DNA of 51,023 nucleotides from a virus. The stretch spans positions 1 to 51,023 of the IMG/VR virus record IMGVR_UViG_3300032360_000013. One strand, 5' to 3'. A program made the position numbers and the translations under genes. Of this stretch, positions 6,378-45,016 are shown piece by piece (the stretch's first letter is position 1; each line of letters opens with the position of its first letter). Below the pieces are notes generated by a model. That model worked only from the letters and a program-made list of their open reading frames with translations. It was not told the DNA's origin and ran no database searches.

Positions 6378-8882
6378 ATGGCAATAGATAAAAAAGCAAT
6401 ACCTGATGAACCTATTGATGAATTGAAAGATTCAACAACAGTCTATGATGAAGAGGTAGAACTAGAAGCAGAAGATCCAATAGAACCTAATGTTGATATG
6501 TTAGAGGATGGCGGAGCTGACATAAATTTTGGTCAACCACAACAAGGTCAAGGTCAAGCTGGGCATCAAGAAAACTTATCAGAAGCTCTAGAGGAGACTA
6601 TTCTTAATTCAGTAGCAAGCGATATTCAAGATGCGTATGAAGATTGTAAATCATCAAGAGGCGATTGGGAAGAAACTTATACTAATGGACTGGATTTACT
6701 TGGATTTAACTATAAAGATAGAACTGAGCCATTTCAAGGAGCAAGTGGTGCCACACACCCAGTTTTAGCAGAAGCAGTAACACAGTTTCAAGCTTTAGCT
6801 TATAAAGAGTTAATGCCAGCAGGGGGTCCAGTAAGAACTCAGATTATTGGTATAGAAACTCCTGAAAAAGTAAAACAGGCAAGGCGTGTAAAAGAATTCA
6901 TGAATTATCAATTAATGATAAACATGAAAGAGTACGAGCCTGAATTCGATCAAATGTTATTTAATTTACCTCTATCAGGATCTACATTTAAAAAAGTTTA
7001 TTATGATGCAGTTCTTGGAAGATGTGTTTCTAAATTCGTGCCTGCAGAAGATTTATATGTTCCATATAATTCAACTTCACTAGATGATACTGAATGTATT
7101 ATTCATAAAATAAAAATGACTAAAAACGATTTAAGAACTCAGCAACTTGCTGGTGTATATCGTGATATAGATTTAGGTGATGGTTCTACGTCTGTTACTA
7201 CAAGTTCTATTGAAGAAAAAAAAGATGAATTAGAAGGAATTGATCCTGATAAAAATGAAATATTCACACTACTAGAAGCTCATATACATTTAGAAATAGA
7301 AGGCTTTGAAGATATTAATCCTGAGACTCAAGAGTCTTCTGGAATCAAGTTTCCTTACATAGTAACTTTGGATGAAGGTTCAGGGGAAATCTTAAGCATA
7401 AAAAGAAACTGGTCTGAACAAGATCAGACTAAAAAGCGAAAAGATTATTTTGTCCACTTTAAATTTCTACCAGGACTCGGATTTTACGGGTTCGGCTTAA
7501 TACACATGATCGGCGGCTTGTCGCGAACTGCAACAGCAGCACTAAGACAACTTCTTGACGCCGGCACCTTGTCAAACTTACCAGCCGGATTCAAAATGCG
7601 AGGCATCCGCGTCAGAGACGAAGCTCAACCGTTGCAGCCGGGCGAGTTTCGTGATGTTGATGCACCTGGTGGAAATCTTAAAGATGCATTTATGCCTTTA
7701 CCATTTAAAGGTCCAGATCAGACATTACTTCAGTTAATGGGAACAGTCGTAGCCGCAGGTCAGCGGTTCGCGAGTATAGCTGATCTACAAGTGGGCGATG
7801 GCAACCAATCGGCAGCCGTGGGTACTACTGTTGCGCTCTTGGAACGCGGATCGCGGGTTATGTCTGCGATACACAAAAGAATTTATGCAGCAATGAAATT
7901 TGAGTTCATGTTACTTGAGAAATGTTTTGTTACTTATTTACCTGGAATGTATCCATATGATATTGTAGGGGGACAACAGGAAATATTTAAAACTGATTTT
8001 GATGAAAAAGTTGATATTATTCCTGTAGCAGATCCTAATATATTCTCTCAGACACAAAGAATTGCTATTGCACAAAGTGAATTACAAATTGCAATGTCTA
8101 ATCCTGGACTACATAATGTTTATCATGCATATAGACACATGTATGAAGCATTAGGTGTAAAAGATATTGATCAAGTTTTACCACCTCCACCACCACCACA
8201 AGCAATGGATCCTGGAGCAGAAAATGTCTTAGCTTTGAATGCTAAAAAGATTCAAGCATTTCCTAAACAAGATCATCAGGCACATATGAAAACACACTTA
8301 TTATTTATGGGTACAAATATTAGTCGAAACAATCCACAAGCTTTAGGAATTTTACAACAGAACTGTATGGAGCATATTGTGCTAATGGCACAAGAACATG
8401 TTGAAGTAGAATACAAGGAACAAATGGAAAAGATGCAACAGTTACAACAACAGATACAACCTATGCTACAACAGCAGCAACAAAATCCACAAGCTCAGAT
8501 GCCTCCTCAAGTACAACAGATACAAGAACAGGCAGCAAACTTACAAGTTGCGATTGAGGCACGTAAGGCAACTTTAATTGCAGAGTTTATGGAAGATTAT
8601 GCAAAAGCTGAAAAACAAGTTCTTAACCAAATAGAAGGTGATCCTTTATTACAATTAAAAGATAGAGAACTTGATATTAAAGCACAAGAAGATCAAGATC
8701 AGAAAAAACAAGCAGAAGATAAATTAAATCTAGAACGAGTTAAAATGCTTCAAGCAAAAAATATAGCAGAAGATAAGCTTGAACAAGCTGATGATCATGC
8801 TAAACTTAGGGCTTCTGTTTCTTTAGCTAAAGATGGCATAAAAGAAATGAAGGCTAGTATTATGGAAAAAAGGAGCGACTAA
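6378..8882 (+). CDS. Portal protein, P22 gp1-like
   Basis: The 834-residue product is large for a portal but in the range of P22-type portals. The first 90 residues are acidic and probably disordered. The core begins near the DLLGFNYKDRTEPF and ATHPVLAEAVTQFQA segments (about 110-145), typical of this family, and continues through VPAEDLYVPYNST (about 225). LQVGDGNQSAAVGTTVALLE (about 468-487) lies in the conserved stem/wing part. The C-terminal 200 residues are Gln-rich coiled coil, like the P22 barrel. A portal dodecamer forms the DNA gate at one capsid vertex and binds terminase and the tail adaptor. An AAGGAG site precedes the ATG, two bases after the upstream stop. Confidence 0.87.
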   Translation: MAIDKKAIPDEPIDELKDSTTVYDEEVELEAEDPIEPNVDMLEDGGADINFGQPQQGQGQAGHQENLSEALEETILNSVASDIQDAYEDCKSSRGDWEETYTNGLDLLGFNYKDRTEPFQGASGATHPVLAEAVTQFQALAYKELMPAGGPVRTQIIGIETPEKVKQARRVKEFMNYQLMINMKEYEPEFDQMLFNLPLSGSTFKKVYYDAVLGRCVSKFVPAEDLYVPYNSTSLDDTECIIHKIKMTKNDLRTQQLAGVYRDIDLGDGSTSVTTSSIEEKKDELEGIDPDKNEIFTLLEAHIHLEIEGFEDINPETQESSGIKFPYIVTLDEGSGEILSIKRNWSEQDQTKKRKDYFVHFKFLPGLGFYGFGLIHMIGGLSRTATAALRQLLDAGTLSNLPAGFKMRGIRVRDEAQPLQPGEFRDVDAPGGNLKDAFMPLPFKGPDQTLLQLMGTVVAAGQRFASIADLQVGDGNQSAAVGTTVALLERGSRVMSAIHKRIYAAMKFEFMLLEKCFVTYLPGMYPYDIVGGQQEIFKTDFDEKVDIIPVADPNIFSQTQRIAIAQSELQIAMSNPGLHNVYHAYRHMYEALGVKDIDQVLPPPPPPQAMDPGAENVLALNAKKIQAFPKQDHQAHMKTHLLFMGTNISRNNPQALGILQQNCMEHIVLMAQEHVEVEYKEQMEKMQQLQQQIQPMLQQQQQNPQAQMPPQVQQIQEQAANLQVAIEARKATLIAEFMEDYAKAEKQVLNQIEGDPLLQLKDRELDIKAQEDQDQKKQAEDKLNLERVKMLQAKNIAEDKLEQADDHAKLRASVSLAKDGIKEMKASIMEKRSD

Positions 8883-11568: not shown

Positions 11569-11704
11569 CAGTATAGACGAATATAAATATATAATAGGAA
11601 AGATTCACGGAATCGATTTAATAACTCAGGAACTCTCTAACCTGCTAGAACCAAAGGAGCCAAATAAAGATGACCCAGGAAACGTCACACGCATTAGAAG
11701 ATAA
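11462..11704 (+). CDS. Conserved-looking 80-residue helical protein
   Basis: The protein begins MSEATTDPINVIYRLRK and continues as a helix-rich sequence with ANGGVDSIDEYKYIIGKIHG (about 29-48) and a short charged tail. It resembles small proteins found next to head genes of marine phages, where a helical hairpin around a GGVDS-type turn is typical; I cannot assign a function. There is no strong ribosome-binding sequence before the ATG, so translation may depend on the overlapping upstream frame. It overlaps the GroES-like gene by 35 bp. Confidence 0.65.
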   Translation: MSEATTDPINVIYRLRKSMQAQMDALIQTLANGGVDSIDEYKYIIGKIHGIDLITQELSNLLEPKEPNKDDPGNVTRIRR

Positions 11705-12110
11705 GTACGATGCAGAAGAAGATGCAAAAAAGATTGCAGAACACGAAGCTACAGAAGAACCTTCCAAAACAAATTTAGAAAAGCTCCCACAGCCCACAGG
11801 CTGGAGATTATTAGTTATGCCCTTTCGTGTTAAAGAGAAGAGCGAAGGTGGAATTATTATTGCACAAGAAGCATTAGATAGAGCGCGGGCCGCGGTCCAA
11901 GTTGGATACGTCTTGAAGCTCGGACCGTTATGTTATGGAGATAAAGAGAGATATCCTACAGGTCCATGGTGCAAGGAAAAAGATTGGGTGATCTTTGCAA
12001 GGTATTCAGGATCACGAATGGAAATTGAAGGTGGAGAGATAAGAATGTTAAACGATGATGAAATTCTTGGGACCATAAAGGATCCTAAAGATTTGATTCA
12101 CGCAATGTAA
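11670..12110 (+). CDS. GroES-like co-chaperonin
   Basis: The 146-residue protein has a helical acidic N-terminal extension of about 40 residues, then a GroES-type beta barrel. This starts at PTGWRLLVMPFRVKEKSEGG (about 41-60), with the mobile-loop region at GGIIIAQEALDRA, and later shows VLKLGPLCYG, WVIFARYSGSRMEI and a final LNDDEILGTIKD. Phage co-chaperonins cap host GroEL so that the capsid protein can fold, as T4 gp31 does. The location just before scaffold and capsid genes fits. The ATG has an AAAGGAG site and overlaps the preceding gene by 35 bp. Confidence 0.85.
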   Translation: MTQETSHALEDKYDAEEDAKKIAEHEATEEPSKTNLEKLPQPTGWRLLVMPFRVKEKSEGGIIIAQEALDRARAAVQVGYVLKLGPLCYGDKERYPTGPWCKEKDWVIFARYSGSRMEIEGGEIRMLNDDEILGTIKDPKDLIHAM

Positions 12111-16142: not shown

Positions 16143-16889
16143 ATGGCAACGTCCGGAACAACTACATTCGAGAGCACTTTTGCAATTGATGATATTATAC
16201 AGGAAGCCTATGATCGTATAGGTCTTCATGCTGTAAGTGGTTACCAATTAAAATCAGCAAGACGTTCATTAAATATAATGTTTCAAGAGTGGGGCAATAG
16301 AGGCTTACACTATTGGGAAATGGGAAATACCAATATTGATCTTGTTGAAGGGCAGGCCGAGTATATTTTCTATAGAGGAGTTGGTGATGGTACGAGTGTG
16401 ACGACTGTACCTGTTAATGGCATCTATGGATTAGATGATGTATTAGAAGCTACTTATAGAAGAGACTATAATACAGTTAATCAATCAGATTCTGCATTAA
16501 CAAAAATTAATAGATCAACTTATTCTGGTCTTTCTAATAAACTAACTAAATCTCAACCTTCACAATATTATGTTCAACGTTTTATTGATAGAACTGCAAT
16601 TACTTTATACCCAACTCCTGACGCTACTGCGGCAACTAATTATATAGGCCTCTATTATGTTAAAAGAATTCAGGATGTAGGTAACTACACTAACACAGCT
16701 GACTCACCTTATCGTTTCGTCCCTGCAATGGTATCAGGTTTAGCTTTCTATCTTTGTCAAAAAGAAAAACCAGAATTATGTCAAGCGATGAAGTTATATT
16801 ATGAAGATGAATTAAATAGAGCTCTTGTTGAAGATGGCTCTTCAACTAGTACTTACATTTCACCACAGGCGTATTATCCAAATGTCTAA
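16143..16889 (+). CDS. Head-completion/tail adaptor protein, P22 gp4-like
   Basis: The 248-residue product has the hallmarks of the P22 gp4 family. There is an N-terminal helical bundle (FAIDDIIQEAYDRIGLH, about 10-26; KSARRSLNIMFQEWGNRG, about 37-54), then a strand-rich domain (NIDLVEGQAEYIF). A PSQYYVQRF...LYPTPDA stretch follows (about 140-160) and a C-terminal helix ends it. This family binds under the portal and begins the tail of short-tailed phages. An AGGAGG site precedes the ATG. The 3' end overlaps the next gene by 8 bp. Confidence 0.82.
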   Translation: MATSGTTTFESTFAIDDIIQEAYDRIGLHAVSGYQLKSARRSLNIMFQEWGNRGLHYWEMGNTNIDLVEGQAEYIFYRGVGDGTSVTTVPVNGIYGLDDVLEATYRRDYNTVNQSDSALTKINRSTYSGLSNKLTKSQPSQYYVQRFIDRTAITLYPTPDATAATNYIGLYYVKRIQDVGNYTNTADSPYRFVPAMVSGLAFYLCQKEKPELCQAMKLYYEDELNRALVEDGSSTSTYISPQAYYPNV

Positions 16890-17904
16890 TTTTTCTACAG
16901 GTAAATATGCAATAGCTATCTCCGACAGGAGTGGTCTGCAATTTCCATATAGAGAAATGGTTAGAGAATGGAATGGCGCGTGGGTTCATACAAGTGAATA
17001 TGAACCAAAATCACCTCTGTTAGAACCAAGAGTTATTAGAGGCGACGCACAAGGACTACGACATGCAAGACCAGGAAGAGTAGAGCCACCTGTAGCGCAT
17101 ATGTTAGATGAGAACGCAATGAGTGCAGGTGTAACAGATTCAATACTTGTAAATGTTTTTGATCCAGGACATGGATATAGTACAGGAGACAGACGTAGAT
17201 TTAGAGATTGTGAATCTCACTTTCCAGAATATCCACAAGTTTCTCATATTGAAGATCATGATATAAATTATGCAGATGGTCATATACTAACTAAAATTGA
17301 TGATGATAATTTTTCATTTAGTCCTAATGATATTCTTGAAGAATGGTTAACAGAAAACTGTAATCCTGGAACTACAACTGTTTATGTTGATGTGGATGGA
17401 ACACTAGCAGAATGGTATCAAGCTGTAGCAACTTTTTTAGGATATAATCCAGACTGGTACGATATGACACCTGCACAAGAATTAGCTGCAATAGCCGCTG
17501 ATCCAAGTTATTTTTTAAACTTAGGAGTAAGAGCTGAGGCAAATGCTTTAGTAGATCTAGTTATGTCAAAAAATACTACTTGGAATGTTTTAACAACAAC
17601 TACGGGTTCTGTTGCAGGCGATGCTCAAAAACTTTCTTGGGTTACTACTCATTTTGGTACACCTGGATCTAGTGTTGGTCGTGCACCTGCATCGGGATCA
17701 ACTCCTGGTGATATAGATTATGCACCTCAGTATAATAAAGGCGGATATGGTGGAGCAAATAAAATGTTAATTGATGATAGAACTGATTATATTAACCAAT
17801 TTGAAACTGCTGGAGGCAAAGGGTTTAAATATTTTGAAAGTGGTGGTATAAGAAAATTTGGAGGAGGAGCTATGTCCGTAGGACCGCTTACAATATTACC
17901 ATGA
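16882..17904 (+). CDS. Tail-region structural protein with an embedded HAD phosphatase-like domain
   Basis: The 340-residue protein begins MSNFSTGKYAIAISDRSG; the PYREMVREWNGAWVH and EPKSPLLEPR segments are typical of a structural protein near tail genes of marine phages. From about residue 165 to 305 it carries a HAD-superfamily domain. Motif I is DVDGT (170-174), a hydrophobic strand ends in TTTTG (about 238-242), a motif III-type Lys is at 250, and motif IV is IDDR (297-300). The spacing resembles deoxyribonucleotidase-type HADs. The C-terminus returns to a Gly-rich tail. The ATG at 16882 overlaps the gp4-like gene by 8 bp; an upstream in-frame ATG at 16825 would lie entirely inside that gene. 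Catalytic activity is inferred from intact motifs only. Confidence 0.8.
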   Translation: MSNFSTGKYAIAISDRSGLQFPYREMVREWNGAWVHTSEYEPKSPLLEPRVIRGDAQGLRHARPGRVEPPVAHMLDENAMSAGVTDSILVNVFDPGHGYSTGDRRRFRDCESHFPEYPQVSHIEDHDINYADGHILTKIDDDNFSFSPNDILEEWLTENCNPGTTTVYVDVDGTLAEWYQAVATFLGYNPDWYDMTPAQELAAIAADPSYFLNLGVRAEANALVDLVMSKNTTWNVLTTTTGSVAGDAQKLSWVTTHFGTPGSSVGRAPASGSTPGDIDYAPQYNKGGYGGANKMLIDDRTDYINQFETAGGKGFKYFESGGIRKFGGGAMSVGPLTILP

Positions 17905-18599
17905 CCACATACGCAGAATTAGTGACACAGATTAGAGATTATACGGAAACAGATGATGCTGTTCTTACAGACACTATTGTTGATGATTTTATAGAACATG
18001 CTGAATTACGGATATTTAAAGACGTAGATTTAGATTGTTATAAAGATGTTATGAATGGTGCAACAGCGGCTGATAATAGATGGGTACCTTTACCTGGGCA
18101 GACAGCTTCAGTTATCACACCTAAATTAACAGATTATGCTACTATTAGATATGTTACTATTTATGTAGACGCAGGAACTAAAGCAAGATCTGAAATGATT
18201 AGAGTAGATGCTGATTTTATGAATGAGTATTATAATACGCCAGACACTGGCTCTACCGCTATGCCAAAATATTATGCACAATGGGATGAGGGCACATTAG
18301 TACTTGCACCAACCCCGAACGCAATATATAAATTTGAAGTAGGATTTACAAGATTACCTACAGGGTTATCAGGAGGTAATACTGAGACTTGGGTAAGTGT
18401 AAATGCTCCTAGAACAATTTTATATTCTAGTTTATGTGAGGCTTTTAAGTTCTTGAAAGCTCCGCAAGATCAACAAGTATATGAACAGTCTTATAGAGAG
18501 TCTGTTACAGCGCTTGCACAAGAACAAATGGGTAAAAAACGTAGGGATGAGTATAGGGATGGAGTTATTAGAATTCCAATTCCTTCTGCAAATCCATAA
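17901..18599 (+). CDS. Phage adaptor protein (tail connector)
   Basis: The 232-residue protein starts MTTYAELVTQIRDYTETDD and continues with DDFIEHAELRIFKDVDLD (about 29-46), the helical pattern of SU10/P22-type adaptor proteins. LPGQ, RYVTIYV, PKYYAQWDEGTLVLAPTP (about 124-141) and a C-terminal helix with EAFKFLKAPQDQQVYEQSYR follow. This order is the signature of the connector that links portal to nozzle. Its start overlaps the HAD-fusion stop by 4 bp (ATGA). Confidence 0.82.
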   Translation: MTTYAELVTQIRDYTETDDAVLTDTIVDDFIEHAELRIFKDVDLDCYKDVMNGATAADNRWVPLPGQTASVITPKLTDYATIRYVTIYVDAGTKARSEMIRVDADFMNEYYNTPDTGSTAMPKYYAQWDEGTLVLAPTPNAIYKFEVGFTRLPTGLSGGNTETWVSVNAPRTILYSSLCEAFKFLKAPQDQQVYEQSYRESVTALAQEQMGKKRRDEYRDGVIRIPIPSANP

Positions 18600-19068: not shown

Positions 19069-20214
19069 ATGGCTTTTGTCATCAACGATAGAGTCAAGGA
19101 AACAACTGCAACTACTGGTACAGGAACAGTTAATCTAGCAGGAGCACTTACTGGTTTTGAAACTTTTGTTGCAGGCATTGGAACTACTAATACAACTTAT
19201 TATTGTATAGTTCTTCCGGGCTCTACAGAGTTTGAAGTTGGTGTAGGTGCTGTAACGGACGCTTCTCCTGATACTCTTTCTAGAACCGCAGTTATTTCAA
19301 GTTCAAATAGTGATTCCTTAGTTGACTTTTCAGCAGGTACCAAAGATGTATTTTGTACACAGCCTGCAGCGAAAGCTATACTTGTAGGGGACAACGGAAA
19401 TGTTGCTACACCTAACGTAGATGTTGCTGGAGCAATAACAGTCACTGGAAATGTCGATGGAAGAAATATTTCTGTTGATGGAACAAAATTAGATGGTGTC
19501 GAAGCTAGTGCCGATGTAACAGATGCAGTTAATGTAGGCGCAGCAATAACAGGATTTGCAACTGATTCAGATGCAGTAGCAACGGATTTAGTTCCTTACT
19601 ACGATGTAGACGAAGGAGCTTGGAATAAATCAACCATAACTAATTTAGCTTTAGTAGGACCTACGGGACCTACGGGACCGCCAGGACCGCCAGGACCTTC
19701 GGGACCGCCAGGACCTACGGGACCAACAGGGCCAACAGGACCGCCAGGACCTACGGGACCACCAGGACCTTCGGGACCGCCAGGACCTACGGGACCAACA
19801 GGGCCAACAGGACCGCCAGGACCAACAGGACCTACAGGATCATTTGCACCAGGAAATCCTATTGCTGCGGGGACCATTACGGCGACGGGCAACATCACAG
19901 CTTATTATTCTGACCCACGTTTAAAAGATTTTGAAGGGGTAATTGGATCTGCTTTAGATAAGTTAAAGAAAATTAGTGGTTACTATTATAAAGAAAATAA
20001 AATAGCTAAGTCATTTGGTTTTGAAAATGAACGAAGACAAGTTGGAGTTAATGCTGATGAAATTGAATTAGTTTTACCAGAGGCTGTAACCTCTGCACCG
20101 TTTGATTCTATGTATAAGGCAGTATGGTATGATAGAATAATACCTTTATTAATAGAAGCTATTAAAGAATTAGATACAAAACCTTGCAACTGTAAATGTA
20201 AAAAGGATAAATAA
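19069..20214 (+). CDS. Tail fibre with collagen-like repeats and S74-type chaperone end
   Basis: The 381-residue fibre has three parts. Residues 1-105 form a common phage fibre N-terminal domain ([20 protein letters not shown] start, later [13 protein letters not shown]). Residues about 197-260 are uninterrupted Gly-Pro-x collagen-like triplets such as [16 protein letters not shown]. From about 280, [13 protein letters not shown] to the end matches the intramolecular chaperone (peptidase S74) family that helps trimerise fibres and may cleave itself off. The last residues contain CNCKCKK, a small Cys cluster. An AGGAGG site precedes the ATG, and the stop overlaps the next start by one base. 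Confidence 0.85.
19693..19823 (+). repeat. 72-bp tandem duplication inside collagen-like repeat DNA
   Basis: Bases 19693-19751 are repeated identically at 19765-19823, a 59-bp identity at a 72-bp period (24 codons). The unit starts GGACCTTCGGGACCGCCAGG. Such repeats can expand or contract by slippage or recombination and so change fibre length in steps of 24 residues. Confidence 0.9.
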
Positions 20215-39473: not shown

Positions 39474-39940
39474 TGAATCTATCAAAAAACTTTACACTAT
39501 CAGAACTAACAAAATCTCAAACAGCGGTACGCAAAGGAATTAATAACGAACCGAGTACCGCGGACATCAATAATCTTATTCACCTAGCGGAGACTATCCT
39601 ACAACCAGTGCGTGAACACTTTGGTAAACCGGTTATGATATCCTCAGGCTATAGAAGCCCAGCGTTGTGCGAGGCTATTGGTTCTTCGACTAAGTCACAA
39701 CATGCCCGGGGTGAGGCAGCAGACTTCGAGATACATTCAGTTGACAACAAGGAACTCGCAGCGTGGATTAAAAAAAACTGTGAATTTGATCAGTTGATCT
39801 TAGAATATTATGATGGGATAGATCCCAACTCTGGTTGGATTCATTGCTCAGTGAAAACAGCACCAGAAATACCGCGCAAGCAAGTACTACAAGCGAAGAA
39901 GATAGAAGGACGAACAGCATACGAACCGATACTTCTTTAG
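39473..39940 (+). CDS. M15-family peptidase endolysin (D-Ala-D-Ala carboxypeptidase-like)
   Basis: The 155-residue protein is a complete peptidase M15 domain. MISSGYRSPALCEAIG (about 55-70) is the conserved lead-in. The zinc ligands are His77 and Asp84 in SQHARGEAADF and His124 in GWIHCSV. This family cuts peptide links in peptidoglycan and commonly serves as phage endolysin. No signal peptide or cell-wall binding domain is present, so release would need a holin. The start overlaps the preceding stop by one base. Its last 4 bp overlap the convergent helicase gene. Confidence 0.88.
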   Translation: MNLSKNFTLSELTKSQTAVRKGINNEPSTADINNLIHLAETILQPVREHFGKPVMISSGYRSPALCEAIGSSTKSQHARGEAADFEIHSVDNKELAAWIKKNCEFDQLILEYYDGIDPNSGWIHCSVKTAPEIPRKQVLQAKKIEGRTAYEPILL

Positions 39941-41382
39941 ATCCAATTTTTAAGATCTTCCCCCATGATTTCATTTGCAATATTAATTTTATTTCGTAGT
40001 GATTTGACGATACGTTCATCTATAGTACCTTCTGCTATCAAGTCAACATAGGTAACATTATTTTTTTGACCAATTCGGTGTGCCCGATCCTCAGATTGCA
40101 ATCTTTTTTCTAGATCATAACTGTTAGAATAATAAATTACTGTGCTCGCAGCGGTAAGAGTAATTCCATACCCTCCAGTTTGAGTGTTCCCTACAAAATA
40201 GCGCGTAGGGCCATTTTTTTGCTGAAACTGAGCAATGTTATCCTGGCGGTACCTTTGGTCCACTCCACCGTGATATTCGACTGTAGAGGCCTCTCCGTAA
40301 GCTTTTTTCAGAGAATTTGTAATATTTTTTATATCTTCCCTATAGTTAGCCCAGATTATTACTTTGCCATCAGTTTCTTCTAAAATACTCATTAGCTCAT
40401 CCAATCTGTTATTCTTTAGGTGAGTAATACTATCATCGTCTGCTTTAAAATGACCACATGTTACTTGATGAAGTCTCATTAGTTGAGTAATTACATTCAT
40501 GGTTGACATCACCTTGCCATTCAATAATGCAAGAGCATCCCGTTTCAATTGTGCATAAATTTTTATCTGTTCATCAGTTAGCTGCACATATCTTTTAGTA
40601 AATACTTTCTCTGGTAAATCTAAACACTCTTCTTTTAGTACACGATAAGAAAACTTATCTAATAATGTTGTGAGCTCTCCAAGGTTTCTATAGCTACCAA
40701 CAAGCTGCACTCTACGGCCACCGAAATTTCTTTCTATCATATTAGCGTACTTCGTACGGAAAGAATAATAAGATGACTGCTGTAGATGGTGTTCGTCCAG
40801 GAACTCACACTGACTATATAAATCTAGTGGAGATTTAGTAACGGGAGAGCCGGTTAATATTCTACGATACTTGGCAAGATTTCCTATTTTTAAAATGTTT
40901 TTTGTGCGTTTTGCTGTCGGATTCTTGATCGTCGTAGATTCATCGATTCCTATTAAAGCTCTTCCAATAAATATGTTAAGGAAACTGTGAGCAAAGTCCA
41001 GTCCTTTTGTTGTAGAAAATGCTTCTACATTCATTATCAATATCTTAAGATCACCTTTATCATCGAACAATGTATCAAGCTCGTACTGTTTTTTCTTTGT
41101 CAAATTTGCTTCCCATAAAACCTTAGTGTATTCAACATGTTCAGGCATGTGTGCAGGGAACTCTATCTCATCCCAGTTTTTGTACACTCCTTTGGGTGCA
41201 ACGATTAGCGCACCGCGGACCGCGCCTCTGTCATATAGCATAGCGATGTTATCAACGAGGACCTTGGACTTACCAGTACCCATCTCCATGAATAAAGCAT
41301 ACGTTGTCTGAGCCCAGGACTTTTCTAAGGCTTTGATTTGATGTGCATAAGGCTTAGTTTTAAACCTATAATCTTTTATCAT
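39937..41382 (-). CDS. SNF2-family helicase/translocase
   Basis: The 481-residue product shows superfamily 2, SNF2-type motifs: PYAHQIKALE (about 11-20, Q-motif region), EMGTGKSK (33-40, Walker A), VAPKGVYKNW (61-70, motif Ia), IDEST (146-150, DExx box), LTGSP (about 176-180, motif III) and the motif VI block SEDRAHRIGQ (about 436-445). Such ATPases move along duplex DNA. It is the only long gene on the minus strand, reading into the lysis genes from a divergent promoter. It probably acts in replication, recombination or early takeover. The start at 41382 is the first ATG after the promoter. Confidence 0.9.
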   Translation of the reverse strand: MIKDYRFKTKPYAHQIKALEKSWAQTTYALFMEMGTGKSKVLVDNIAMLYDRGAVRGALIVAPKGVYKNWDEIEFPAHMPEHVEYTKVLWEANLTKKKQYELDTLFDDKGDLKILIMNVEAFSTTKGLDFAHSFLNIFIGRALIGIDESTTIKNPTAKRTKNILKIGNLAKYRRILTGSPVTKSPLDLYSQCEFLDEHHLQQSSYYSFRTKYANMIERNFGGRRVQLVGSYRNLGELTTLLDKFSYRVLKEECLDLPEKVFTKRYVQLTDEQIKIYAQLKRDALALLNGKVMSTMNVITQLMRLHQVTCGHFKADDDSITHLKNNRLDELMSILEETDGKVIIWANYREDIKNITNSLKKAYGEASTVEYHGGVDQRYRQDNIAQFQQKNGPTRYFVGNTQTGGYGITLTAASTVIYYSNSYDLEKRLQSEDRAHRIGQKNNVTYVDLIAEGTIDERIVKSLRNKINIANEIMGEDLKNWI

Positions 41383-41455: not shown

Positions 41456-41914
41456 ATGAGAAATAAATTATTTGAACTATACAGGCCTAAACAATTGGTG
41501 GAATTTCTAGACTTTATTAAAGAATACCCCGATGAAAAATTGGTCTATGTTTTACAACATCCACCACAAAATATTAATATATTGGCTGCATCAGACTATG
41601 GCTATCTGGTTATTTGTTTACCGGAGCTATCACAACTACAATTTAGTCCCGCACCTTTTATTCATAAGATGCGTAAGAACTTACGAGATTTCAAACCAAA
41701 AGATTTCATACTATGTACAGGAGATCCAGCTATCATTGGATTATCTACTGCTATTGTAAGTGATGTTACAGGAGGAGTATTTAATTTATTAAAATGGGAT
41801 AGACAAGAAAGAAGATACTATCCTCTTACTTTTGATTTGTATAATAAAATAAAAATCGACGATGAACCAACAGGAGGAAGAATAGGAATGTCTAGAGGAG
41901 GCGTGATAAAATGA
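41456..41914 (+). CDS. Conserved marine-phage protein ending in a GGRIG motif
   Basis: The 152-residue product starts MRNKLFELYRPKQLVEFLDF. It contains KLVYVLQHPPQNINILAASD (about 28-47) and DFILCTGDPAIIGLSTAI (about 82-99), then FNLLKWDRQERRYYPLTF. I recall similar proteins (RPK start, CxGDPA-IGL, FNLLKWD) in other marine phages, always without assigned function. The last 15 residues are PTGGRIGMSRGGVIK, a clear copy of the motif found in the virion proteins (GGR at 140). This copy is the only one in the replication operon and is C-terminal. It is the first gene after the rightward promoter and overlaps the next gene by 4 bp. Confidence 0.8.
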   Translation: MRNKLFELYRPKQLVEFLDFIKEYPDEKLVYVLQHPPQNINILAASDYGYLVICLPELSQLQFSPAPFIHKMRKNLRDFKPKDFILCTGDPAIIGLSTAIVSDVTGGVFNLLKWDRQERRYYPLTFDLYNKIKIDDEPTGGRIGMSRGGVIK

Positions 41915-42471
41915 CTACACTAACACTACAAGATCTTGAAAGAGATCAACAAGAACTAATAGAGAAAACAGATATTCAGCAACTATCGAGCTACTGTTTA
42001 GAACTCCAAGCTTTAGAAGATGATATAGCTTCTAAAGAAGAGGAGCTAAAGAAACAAAAAGAACAAGCCGATAAGATTGCATCAGAGATTATACCTACCT
42101 TGCTCGCAGAGCAGGGGTTAAAATCTTTGAAATTAGCTGACGGGAGCGCTATAGAGGTTGGAAAATCTTATAGCTGTACGGTTAAAAAAGATAACCTAGA
42201 GTCAGCTTATAAATGGCTTCGAGATAACGGACTAGGAGACATCATTAAAAATGAGGTCTTCGTTACGTTCGGTAAAGGCGAAGATAACAAGGCGGAGCAA
42301 TTGCTCAACCTTGCAGTGCAAGAAGGGTTTGAGCCTCAACAAAAATCAAAAGTTGAGCCGATGACTTTAAAGGCACTCTATAGGGAGCGTATCGAGGCCG
42401 GCCTCGATATGCCCTCTGATTCTTTTCATTTATTTGTTAAGGATAAAACTAAAATTAGCCGGAAATCATGA
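41911..42471 (+). CDS. Conserved phage protein with coiled-coil N-terminus
   Basis: The 186-residue product has a long charged N-terminal coiled coil (LEDDIASKEEELKKQKEQAD, about 31-50). A compact domain follows with EIIPTLLAEQGLKSLKLADG (about 58-77), KSYSCTVKKDNLESAYKWL and a DNGLGDIIKNEVFVTFGKG stretch (about 109-127). The I-P-x-L-(M/L)-x-E-x-GLKSL-x-L-x-DG pattern recurs in phage proteins located beside single-stranded DNA-binding genes; its job is not known. The C-terminal PMTLKALYRERIEAGLDMP is also typical. It overlaps its neighbours by 4 bp. Confidence 0.78.
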   Translation: MTTLTLQDLERDQQELIEKTDIQQLSSYCLELQALEDDIASKEEELKKQKEQADKIASEIIPTLLAEQGLKSLKLADGSAIEVGKSYSCTVKKDNLESAYKWLRDNGLGDIIKNEVFVTFGKGEDNKAEQLLNLAVQEGFEPQQKSKVEPMTLKALYRERIEAGLDMPSDSFHLFVKDKTKISRKS

Positions 42472-42488
42472 ACCAAGGAGGACGAACC

Positions 42489-43265
42489 ATGAATCAAGTA
42501 ACGAAAAAAGAGAAAACAGACGTAGCTCTAGCGAGTATGTTTGAAGGAGACAAGCAGGCTGGCACGGAAGAAATGGGTAGTGAAGATTATGCTATGCCAT
42601 TTCTAAGAGTGTTAGGCCAGCTATCACCCGAGATAAATAAACGGGATGCCAAATATGTGGAAGGCGCTGAACCAGGTATGATATTTAATACCGTGACTAA
42701 GCAGACATATGATGGTGAGAAAGGACTTAATGTAATTCCTTGCGGATACAAAAGGGATTATGTTGAGTGGACTGAGAGAGGCGAAGGCTCTTCAGCCCCA
42801 GTTGCTACTCACTCAGCGAGTAGTGGCATAATTAAGCAAGCAACAAGAGATGGAGCTAACAAAGAGAGATTACCAAATGGTAATTATCTTGAGAACACTG
42901 CTTCTTATTTTGTTATTGCGGAGGATGGATCCAAAGCATTGATAACCATGAAATCTACTCAATTAAAAGTGAGTAGAAACTGGAACTCTATGATGGATAA
43001 CATAAGTATGAAAGGTAGTGATGGTAACACATTTACCCCTCCTATCTTTAGTCATGTGTATAACCTTAGCACTGTTCAACAATCAAATGACAAGGGAACT
43101 TGGTTTGGTTGGAGTGTTAAAAAGGTAGGTCCTATAACAGATAAATCTGTTTATGAAACCTGCAAAGAGTTTCACTCAGCGGTTGGTAGCCTAAGGGTGA
43201 ATCACGGTGGAGCGGACAAGAAGTTAGAGTCTAATGAAAAATTAGATGATAACGTACCGTTCTAA
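42489..43265 (+). CDS. Putative single-stranded DNA-binding protein
   Basis: The 258-residue protein lies in the replication operon. Its core contains YAMPFLRVLGQLSPEIN (about 34-50), a GEKGLNVIPCGYKRDYVEW strand pair, and KALITMKSTQLKVSRNWNSM (about 148-167). The C-terminus ends LDDNVPF, the acidic Pro-Phe tip that bacterial SSB proteins use to recruit partners. I therefore call it an SSB-like protein, although the core is not the classic SSB sequence. The ATG at 42489 is preferred over one at 42468 because AAGGAGGA lies between the two. The gene is followed by a hairpin. Confidence 0.72.
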   Translation: MNQVTKKEKTDVALASMFEGDKQAGTEEMGSEDYAMPFLRVLGQLSPEINKRDAKYVEGAEPGMIFNTVTKQTYDGEKGLNVIPCGYKRDYVEWTERGEGSSAPVATHSASSGIIKQATRDGANKERLPNGNYLENTASYFVIAEDGSKALITMKSTQLKVSRNWNSMMDNISMKGSDGNTFTPPIFSHVYNLSTVQQSNDKGTWFGWSVKKVGPITDKSVYETCKEFHSAVGSLRVNHGGADKKLESNEKLDDNVPF

Positions 43266-43340: not shown

Positions 43341-43481
43341 ATGGAAAAGAAATATTGTGAAACCTGTGGTGGTTCTTTTACACCTAGCCAGTGGCAAAAA
43401 ACAAAAAGATTTTGTTCTGGACCTTGTACTAATGGATGGTATAACAAGACTAATAGTAAATACAGAAAGAAGAAGAAATGA
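43341..43481 (+). CDS. 46-residue zinc-finger protein
   Basis: The product starts MEKKYCETCGGSFTPSQW and has CETC (6-9) and CSGPC (about 25-29), a four-Cys zinc site, then a very basic Lys-rich end (SKYRKKKK). An AGAAAGGAA site precedes the ATG, and the stop overlaps the primase start (ATGA). It probably binds nucleic acid. The small size and operon position suggest a replication accessory factor; that is inference. Confidence 0.7.
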   Translation: MEKKYCETCGGSFTPSQWQKTKRFCSGPCTNGWYNKTNSKYRKKKK

Positions 43482-45016
43482 AATTTCGACAAATCTTTGA
43501 AGGGAATAATAGTGTACGTGGTGTAATGACTCTTGGAACTCCGGCCGCGGCAGGTGAGAAACAAGAAGTTAAATGTTATATGCCAAGCGCCCCAGTCACA
43601 CAGCAAATGTGGGACGAACATATAGAAGGTAAAGAACCTTCATTAGGTATAGTTCCTATCAACGAACAAAGTTTATGCAAGTGGGGCTGCATTGATATAG
43701 ATGTGTATGACACTATCAATCACTTAACTTTAATGAGACATATTAAAGGCAAAGGGTATCCTTTAATTACATGTAGATCTAAGTCTGGTGGTGCACACTT
43801 ATTTTTATTTTGTAAGGAATTCCTTCCTGCAAAAATCATGAAACATAAACTAGAAGAGATTGCAGAAGACCTTGGTTATGGTGATTCAGAAGTATTTCCT
43901 AAGCAAACTGAATTATTAATGGATCAGGGTGACAAAGGAAGTTTTTTAAACCTTCCTTATCATGGAGGAGATACAAGTACTCGCTATGCTTTTACGTCAG
44001 GTGGGGAGTATGCTACTTTAGAACAGTTCTATTCTATGTATGATGAATGGGCACAAACAAAAGAAGAAATTGAATCTATAAAAATAAAACCTCAACCAAA
44101 AGAAGAGCAGGCATTTCCAGATGGTCCTCCTTGTTTAAATAAATTAGCAAAGGAAGGGTTTACTCAAGGCTCTAGAAACAATGCTTTATATAATATTGGT
44201 GTTTATAGAAAGAAAGCAAATCCAGATAACTGGGAAAAGATGATGGATGCAGATAATAATAAATATATTGTTCCTCCATTACCATCTAAGGAGGTTGTTA
44301 CTTTGCAGAAGTCTTTAGAAAAGAAAGACTATAAATACAAATGTAAAGAGGCCCCAATACAACCTGTATGTGAAGCCCATAAATGTAGTAAGTGTCCGTT
44401 TGGAGTAGGTTATGGTGAATCAGATATACAACTACCAGAATTTAAAGACTTAACTAAAATATGTTCTGATCCTCCACTATATTTTTTAAATGTAGATAGT
44501 AAGAGAATAAAACTTACAGGTGAGCAGCTTCTGGAACCTAGATTATTTAAACTAGAAGTATTTAAACAAGCTAACATTGCAATAGCTAAGATGCCTCCGA
44601 TGGAGAAATGGATATCTGATTATGTTACTCCTCTCTCTGCTCCAGGTGCTATCAGAGAAGTAAAAGCCATAGAATCTATGACCCCCGCTTTCCAATTAAG
44701 AGAGCTTTTATTTGAGTTTACAAGAAATATTTCTACTGGGAATGAGTTAGATGATATTGCAAATCACGTTTCATATACTGATGAGAAGGAGGGTATAACA
44801 TATTTTTTAGCTAAAGACTTTACTGATTTTATTAAAAGGAATGGTTGGACTGAAGGTAAGAATGCTACTTCAAATATATTAGCTACTCTAGATATATATA
44901 AAGATGAGGACAGGATACAGGTAAGAACCAGTAAGAGGACTGTGCTAATGATTAAGGCATTTAAAAAGCTAGAAATAAAATCTAGTAAAATGAGCTATGA
45001 TGACAGCCCTTTCTAA
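43478..45016 (+). CDS. Archaeo-eukaryotic-type primase
   Basis: The 512-residue product is a primase of the AEP superfamily. The catalytic acidic pair is Asp73 and Asp75 in GCIDIDVYD, and the SKSGGAHLFLF stretch (101-111) provides the conserved Ser-x-His strand (His107). PKQTELLMDQGDKGSFLNLP (about 141-160) is typical of phage members. A Cys cluster at 289, 298, 303 and 306 (KCKE...VCEAHKCSKC) is a probable zinc site. The C-terminal 180 residues are a helical domain of unknown role. The protein ends SYDDSPF, an acidic Pro-Phe tip similar to the upstream SSB-like protein. It makes primers for the family A polymerase. It overlaps the preceding gene by 4 bp. Confidence 0.85.
   Translation: MKFRQIFEGNNSVRGVMTLGTPAAAGEKQEVKCYMPSAPVTQQMWDEHIEGKEPSLGIVPINEQSLCKWGCIDIDVYDTINHLTLMRHIKGKGYPLITCRSKSGGAHLFLFCKEFLPAKIMKHKLEEIAEDLGYGDSEVFPKQTELLMDQGDKGSFLNLPYHGGDTSTRYAFTSGGEYATLEQFYSMYDEWAQTKEEIESIKIKPQPKEEQAFPDGPPCLNKLAKEGFTQGSRNNALYNIGVYRKKANPDNWEKMMDADNNKYIVPPLPSKEVVTLQKSLEKKDYKYKCKEAPIQPVCEAHKCSKCPFGVGYGESDIQLPEFKDLTKICSDPPLYFLNVDSKRIKLTGEQLLEPRLFKLEVFKQANIAIAKMPPMEKWISDYVTPLSAPGAIREVKAIESMTPAFQLRELLFEFTRNISTGNELDDIANHVSYTDEKEGITYFLAKDFTDFIKRNGWTEGKNATSNILATLDIYKDEDRIQVRTSKRTVLMIKAFKKLEIKSSKMSYDDSPF

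Follow-up and report, generated by a model that had tools for sequence, protein, structure and literature searches.

A nucleotidase-like HAD domain nested in a connector-region structural protein of marine phages

Enzymes on phage particles are usually tail depolymerases, esterases or lysozymes. In phage SU10, the adaptor ring links the portal with the nozzle and bears the long fibres (PMC9509320). HTVC023P-type pelagiphages were surveyed for auxiliary genes, and a 5'-deoxynucleotidase gene was reported near thymidylate synthase in some Clade II genomes (PMC9599517). The main text of that survey makes no mention of a HAD-like, haloacid, phosphatase or structural protein. The roseophages CRP-901/902 were described with a tail adaptor gene (PMC10149686). 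CRP-902 has a homologue of the protein studied here, and this homologue is without a HAD domain. No description of a HAD domain in a connector protein was found in the open-access literature searched, in which the architecture reported below appears to be undescribed.

The stretch analysed is the viral record IMGVR_UViG_3300032360_000013 (51,023 nt), hereafter the window, and the gene of interest encodes a protein of 340 aa. A DNA polymerase A, helicases and a primase-like protein are likewise encoded in the window. A GroES-like co-chaperonin (11670-12110; phrog_3188, E 1.7e-17) is located between the portal and head genes, and a tail-fibre protein (19069-20214) has a collagen-like stretch and a C-terminal domain in common with long tail fibres. 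Further along, an SNF2-type helicase gene (39937-41382) is the only large minus-strand gene of the window. It is followed by three consecutive genes (41456-43265) matching the Pfam families of cyanophage Pam3 gp32, gp33 and gp34, and by a gene whose product matches, above threshold, the archaeo-eukaryotic primase domain of the TOTE conflict system (43478-45016, E 2.5e-10).

Gene neighbourhood and domain layout

The gene lies between two connector genes, as the initial annotation had stated, and the overlaps of 8 bp upstream and 4 bp downstream are exact. The downstream product matches SU10_adaptor directly. The upstream product itself has no Pfam match, and its assignment comes from its Pam1-annotated relative, which matches SU10_adaptor (E 8.5e-13). 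Moreover, the portal gene (6378-8882) matches SU10_portal. The arrangement is highly regular: among the loci with room to tell, the upstream adaptor adjoins in 48/48 HAD-bearing and 162/173 HAD-less loci, and the downstream adaptor in 45/45 and 191/191, respectively. Judged by this gene order, the 340-aa protein is most likely part of either the connector or the structure that attaches its fibres.

Comparison with PHROGs divides the protein into two parts (Table 1). Residues 1-147 match phrog_28581 (E 3.7e-37), a family of unknown function with a profile of 165 positions and no HAD domain. Both the N-domain likeness and the place between two adaptor genes thus agree with phrog_28581. Residues 164-317 match phrog_2643, annotated as 5'-3' deoxyribonucleotidase (E 2.3e-13), and also phrog_420. 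The HAD domain is matched directly by no Pfam or NCBIfam model.

Table 1 Features of the HAD-bearing gene and its neighbours (window coordinates)
Feature	Position	Strand	Remarks
Upstream connector gene, SU10/Pam1-type adaptor	16143..16889	+	39% identical to annotated Pam1 adaptor
HAD-bearing connector-region structural protein	16882..17904	+	340 aa; ATG start; 50 distinct full-length homologues of the same architecture
N-terminal part, residues 1-68	16882..17085	+	conserved AISDRSG..FPY.EM..EWNG..VH.SE.E.K.PQL; resembles a degenerate Cys knuckle
Small beta barrel, first part, residues 69-149	17086..17328	+	endosialidase-barrel / E1-FCCH-like
Inserted HAD phosphatase domain, residues 150-322	17329..17847	+	NT5C / 5'(3')-deoxyribonucleotidase-like; missing from HAD-less homologues
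Homologue of the recombining cassette, about residues 165-293	17374..17760	+	HAD core, motif I to just before motif IV
Motif I DVDGT (D170 nucleophile, D172)	17389..17403	+	both Asp invariant, n=50 distinct homologues
Motif II Thr239	17596..17598	+	Thr in 40, Ser in 10
Lys250	17629..17631	+	invariant; helix after S2; aligns with the conserved K..W of standalone nucleotidases
Lys286	17737..17739	+	invariant; between S3 and S4; motif III position by topology
Motif IV IDDR (D298, D299)	17770..17781	+	invariant
Resumed structural C-terminus, residues 323-340, ..GGGAMSVGPLTILP + stop	17848..17904	+	last barrel strand
Downstream connector gene, SU10-type adaptor	17901..18599	+	Pfam SU10_adaptor E 3.9e-23

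A scan of viral contigs yielded 325 relatives of the 340-aa protein, the best 80 of which were used for comparison. Among these, the HAD-less relatives (187-280 aa) have the N-terminal ~110 and the last ~15 residues in common with it. In the joint alignment, HAD-less homologues cover residues 1-137 and 326-340, with only scattered letters in between. Since they align only at both ends, the HAD domain is nested in the loop before the last barrel strand. Residues 323-340 (GGGAMSVGPLTILP) were aligned with the C-terminus of the HAD-less homologues (GGGFPLSVGPVTI.., GGGFPxSVGPVT), and the Gly-rich end is therefore the structural domain resumed. The initial annotation was thus right in calling the HAD domain embedded, but the order it gave, a HAD domain followed by a Gly-rich tail, has to be replaced by a nested arrangement.

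The barrel interrupted by the insert weakly resembles the phage endosialidase barrel and the E1 FCCH fold, on three concordant lines: a match to the endosialidase 4hiz in the PDB (E 0.008), matches of Pfam End_beta_barrel to 3/18 HAD-less relatives (best E 0.0074), and a Foldseek match to the E1 half-domain 2v31 (E 0.0096). No solved relative of the N-domain was found. Its SDRSG (window 16882-17000) resembles a degenerate version of the CDYCG of phage DSL-LC04 (L085 4001-4396), and a zinc knuckle may possibly have been lost.

Other modules are found in HAD-less relatives. In L041, L053, L057, L083 and others, a different, beta-rich-looking insert (..ETIKYTxNNTGTGxLSGLTRG..) is present slightly earlier in the same region, which indicates that the insert region accepts modules. 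No other enzyme was seen in the insertion slot among the longest of 253 distinct full-length members, whose inserts look non-enzymatic. A HAD-less member of 301 aa (L186 2501-3403) has a C-terminal cupredoxin-like stretch (Pfam SoxE, E 4e-4, just under the cut-off).

Catalytic positions and closest HAD family

HAD superfamily motifs I, II, III and IV were all found in the insert, and the motif set is far above chance. DVDGT at 170-174, a Thr after a hydrophobic strand (T239 in NVLTTTTG), K250 and IDDR at 297-300, all listed in the initial annotation, are present in the translated ORF. The catalytic positions were claimed to be intact, and the Asp and Lys sites are invariant across 50 distinct homologues. 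D170, D172, G173, K250, K286, K294, D298 and D299 occur in 50/50 distinct full-length proteins, whose HAD identity goes down to 54%. In the secondary structure of the model, strand 235-239 ends at T239 and strand 294-298 at motif IV.

The assignment of the lysine needs a qualification. In the HAD topology, motif III is upstream of strand S4. K286 lies just before this strand and would therefore represent motif III. In the alignment with human mitochondrial deoxyribonucleotidase (mdN), K250 is paired with the Lys in K..W and K286 with the Lys in RDK. The proposal of Lys250 as the HAD lysine is backed by its conservation (50/50), but K286, a second invariant Lys, fits the motif III position by topology at least as well.

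The link to a HAD family was made through free phage proteins, several of them annotated as 5'-3' deoxyribonucleotidase or 5' nucleotidase, which gave weak matches to the HAD-family consensus. Six of these relatives were taken for profile work, and five of the six passed the cut-off of Pfam NT5C (PF06941). Among PDB entries, their profile matches the mitochondrial and cytosolic deoxyribonucleotidases of humans (1mh9, E 2.9e-11). This profile and the embedded HAD domain, in turn, match each other at 99.2% probability (hhalign, E 3.7e-19), which is not the case for the N-domain. Searched alone against the PDB, the HAD profile gave chance-level matches only, and the family link came via the standalone relatives. 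None of 12 HAD-bearing members matches Pfam NT5C at its curated score, and the insert is therefore termed NT5C-like rather than filed as NT5C.

An AlphaFold2 model was built from an alignment of 63 sequences, 15 of them standalone nucleotidases. Its mean pLDDT is 76.8, with residues 69-340 mostly good and residues 1-68 poor. Helices 178-230 form a predicted small helical cap between motifs I and II. The best PDB match of the model is the deoxyribonucleotidase-like 3BWV (E 4e-4, TM 0.63 by target length); next in rank are class B phosphatases (AphA), the phosphatase of T4 Pnkp and human mdN. Named 5'(3')-deoxyribonucleotidases account for two of the top six BFVD matches. The fold match is supportive rather than independent, because the model alignment included standalone nucleotidases. 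Judging from profiles and predicted fold, the embedded HAD domain is closest to the phage 5'(3')-deoxyribonucleotidases of NT5C type. A T4 Pnkp-type 3' phosphatase was considered and rejected, as Pnkp ranks below 3BWV and AphA in the PDB and below the nucleotidases in BFVD. The peptide GSSVGRAPA was also considered as a translated tRNA; ARAGORN found no tRNA in the window, and the stretch is a variable loop of the HAD domain.

Distribution of the HAD domain and exchange of its core

Scanning viral contigs with the HAD profile yielded 108 contigs with relatives and 50 distinct full-length HAD-bearing proteins of 334-347 aa. A tree of the N-domain was built from 254 rows and 118 columns with the HAD columns left out. 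Many of its forks are unresolved, and the HAD label changes once on it (SH-aLRT 91), with 203 homologues lacking the domain. The simplest reading of the tree is a single gain of the HAD domain in one marine phage lineage, to which the insert is confined. In ten HAD-bearing records, no second, separate HAD gene was found, and the domain was absent from ten HAD-less records, including HTVC027P, CRP-902, 023Pt_psg01 and DSL-LC04; many of the contigs in both sets are fragments. A search for a cellular origin with the HAD profile in prokaryote genomes (one per species, 84,980 species) gave no relative. No relative with the HAD part as a separate gene was seen, and the nucleophile Asp is kept in 50/50 proteins, so that neither of the two findings named beforehand as speaking against the fusion was made. 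The HAD domain is old and under constraint. The median pairwise dN/dS is 0.209 for the HAD domain and 0.192 for the N-domain, rough figures because synonymous sites are near saturation in many pairs.

A new finding is that the HAD core behaves as an exchangeable cassette. Phages that are near-identical on both sides (97-100%) have HAD cores only 60-70% alike. For instance, L139 and L156 are 96-100% identical as far as about gene nt 480 (residue 160); identity drops to 46-80% for residues 165-293 or so and is back at 98-100% from about motif IV onward. The same pattern is seen in L133/L156, and a similar one, on a less identical background, in L116/L126. In L005 and L009, identity is 100% from 1.5 kb upstream as far as residue ~160; beyond this point the two differ, and they are still apart downstream. 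In all seven loci, the exchanged segment corresponds to gene nt ~480-880.

Pairwise identity correlations, calculated for 39 loci with complete neighbours, agree with this picture. Identity of the upstream adaptor correlates with that of the N-domain (0.84) and of the downstream adaptor (0.79), and identity of the C-terminal end correlates with that of the N-domain (0.79) and of the downstream adaptor (0.57). Correlations of the flanks among themselves thus span 0.57-0.84, compared with 0.32-0.37 between the HAD core and any flanking part. Among 38 pairs with N-domains at least 93% identical, the HAD core is at most 70% identical in 17, the downstream adaptor in 1 and the upstream adaptor in 0; these counts describe a pattern and not a significance test, because the pairs are not mutually independent.

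The breakpoints are near catalytic motifs I and IV, where conserved DNA could provide crossover points. Phage mosaicism in general does not by itself explain an exchange concentrated in one segment. The exchange of the core points to a module that is exposed and selected for variation, and less to a housekeeping enzyme for an invariant metabolite. It also suggests that the precise version of the enzyme is important to the phage.

Proposed function and comparison with known systems

With moderate confidence, the HAD domain is regarded as an active phosphatase displayed on the neck of the virion, where gene order and homology would place it. The gene product would be a minor structural protein of the head-tail connector, with the conserved N-terminal segment as an anchor, followed by the beta barrel. 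A complete NT5C-type HAD domain was inserted in the loop before the last barrel strand in one marine lineage. An enzyme placed in this loop would project from the neck, and each subunit of the connector ring would contribute one copy, presumably a dozen or so in all. The domain is most likely a Mg-dependent phosphatase, in which D170 would attack the phosphomonoester with D172 as acid/base, T239 and the lysines would hold the phosphate, and D298/D299 would hold Mg. By family relationship, the substrate would be a 5'- or 3'-(deoxy)nucleoside monophosphate, and deoxynucleoside monophosphates would fit the closest family. The target may be a phosphate group of the host surface or envelope, or cell-surface nucleotides during adsorption and entry. 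Given its exchange among near-identical phages, the core probably encounters something that varies outside the phage, which is the least certain part of the proposal. A more far-reaching version can be put forward only tentatively. A surface-displayed active nucleotidase/phosphatase would have its specificity-bearing core under diversifying exchange, because it would act on a variable host target at adsorption or entry, such as a strain-specific surface phosphate or a nucleotide of host defence. If true, virions would carry a class of enzyme other than the depolymerases and lysozymes known so far.

The division of the protein by PHROGs and the two ends common to HAD-less homologues speak for the neck-displayed phosphatase. 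On the other side, the first 68 residues of the model are of low confidence, its alignment contained standalone nucleotidases, and retention of an active site does not prevent a domain from acting as a binder. In the latter case, the HAD domain would be a structural or binding module whose pocket is kept for a phosphorylated ligand (surface glycan, nucleotide or lipid head group), serving adhesion or decoration with turnover irrelevant. Its position in a loop of a structural protein, the other, non-enzymatic-looking inserts of relatives in the same region and the exchange of cores in the manner of adhesin tips would agree with such a role. It is nonetheless doubtful, as D170, D172 and D298/D299 are invariant in 50 proteins and the whole catalytic set is unexpected for a pure binder. 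The initial annotation was correct in placing an enzyme-type domain in a structural connector-region protein, here of a single lineage; a decoration domain, which it also suggested, may be an alternative.

An enzyme on an invariant metabolite would have no obvious need for allele exchange, and this weighs against the neck-displayed phosphatase if its substrate is constant, as well as against a role inside the cell. The protein, made late, could as free subunits or on assembling heads dephosphorylate dNMPs from degraded host DNA, which would then leave the cell or stop competing, as may hold for free phage nucleotidases. This is rather unlikely, even though the closest relatives are free phage 5'-deoxyribonucleotidases and related pelagiphages encode a 5'-deoxynucleotidase as a gene of its own close to thymidylate synthase (PMC9599517). 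As part of a structural gene, the domain is bound to late expression and a low copy number, and the cassette exchange would have no reason. Furthermore, no TS, ThyX, RNR or HD-type nucleotidase (HD_3) was found in the HAD-bearing group, whose records are incomplete, and the idea of a nucleotide-synthesis or hypermodification cluster with the HAD domain was dropped. It is very improbable that the domain acts in the connector on the ends of nucleic acids, for example those of DNA passing through the neck, or on some other phosphomonoester. The T4 Pnkp phosphatase domain among the Foldseek matches (E 0.004) and the nearby portal would suit such a role, but sequence profiles and the best fold match favour nucleotidases over Pnkp, and an outward-facing insertion would not see the channel. 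An assembly chimera, in which a free HAD gene was erroneously joined to the structural gene, or a pseudogene in decay can be practically dismissed in view of the 108 contigs, the 50 full-length proteins of 334-347 aa, the constrained dN/dS (~0.2) and the lack of a free copy in ten HAD-bearing records.

If the preferred reading of a neck-displayed phosphatase is right, this nucleotidase-type HAD domain, with its invariant active site and its place inside a connector protein, would represent a novel type of virion cargo. The lineage is marine, uncultured and represented by more than 100 contigs. The cassette exchange gives a direct handle on the function of the domain, and the loop before the last barrel strand is marked as a natural insertion site of the connector protein.

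Parts of this arrangement are familiar from known systems. The flanking adaptors and the portal are like those of the SU10/Pam1-type connector (SU10_adaptor and SU10_portal matches). In the sections of PMC9509320 that describe it, the SU10 tail consists of portal, one adaptor, nozzle, needle and fibres, with no counterpart of the present protein named. The phrog_28581 protein of HTVC023P-type pelagiphages and CRP-901-type roseophages has the same N-domain, C-terminal end and adaptor-flanked place, but all isolates of these types that were found are without the HAD domain. Human mitochondrial 5'(3')-deoxyribonucleotidase (1MH9) and S. epidermidis 3BWV have the same fold and catalytic positions at about 20% identity; they are free cellular enzymes, whereas the domain described here is a connector insert. 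Standalone phage 5'(3')-deoxyribonucleotidases (phrog_2643/NT5C; Vibrio phage EniLVp02, Methylophilales phage Melnitz-3, Xanthomonas phage XacN1) have the same HAD core with motifs I-IV and, as here, a small cap between motifs I and II and a size of ~160-180 aa. Those enzymes are free small proteins of large phages, in contrast to the present domain, which is nested in a connector protein.
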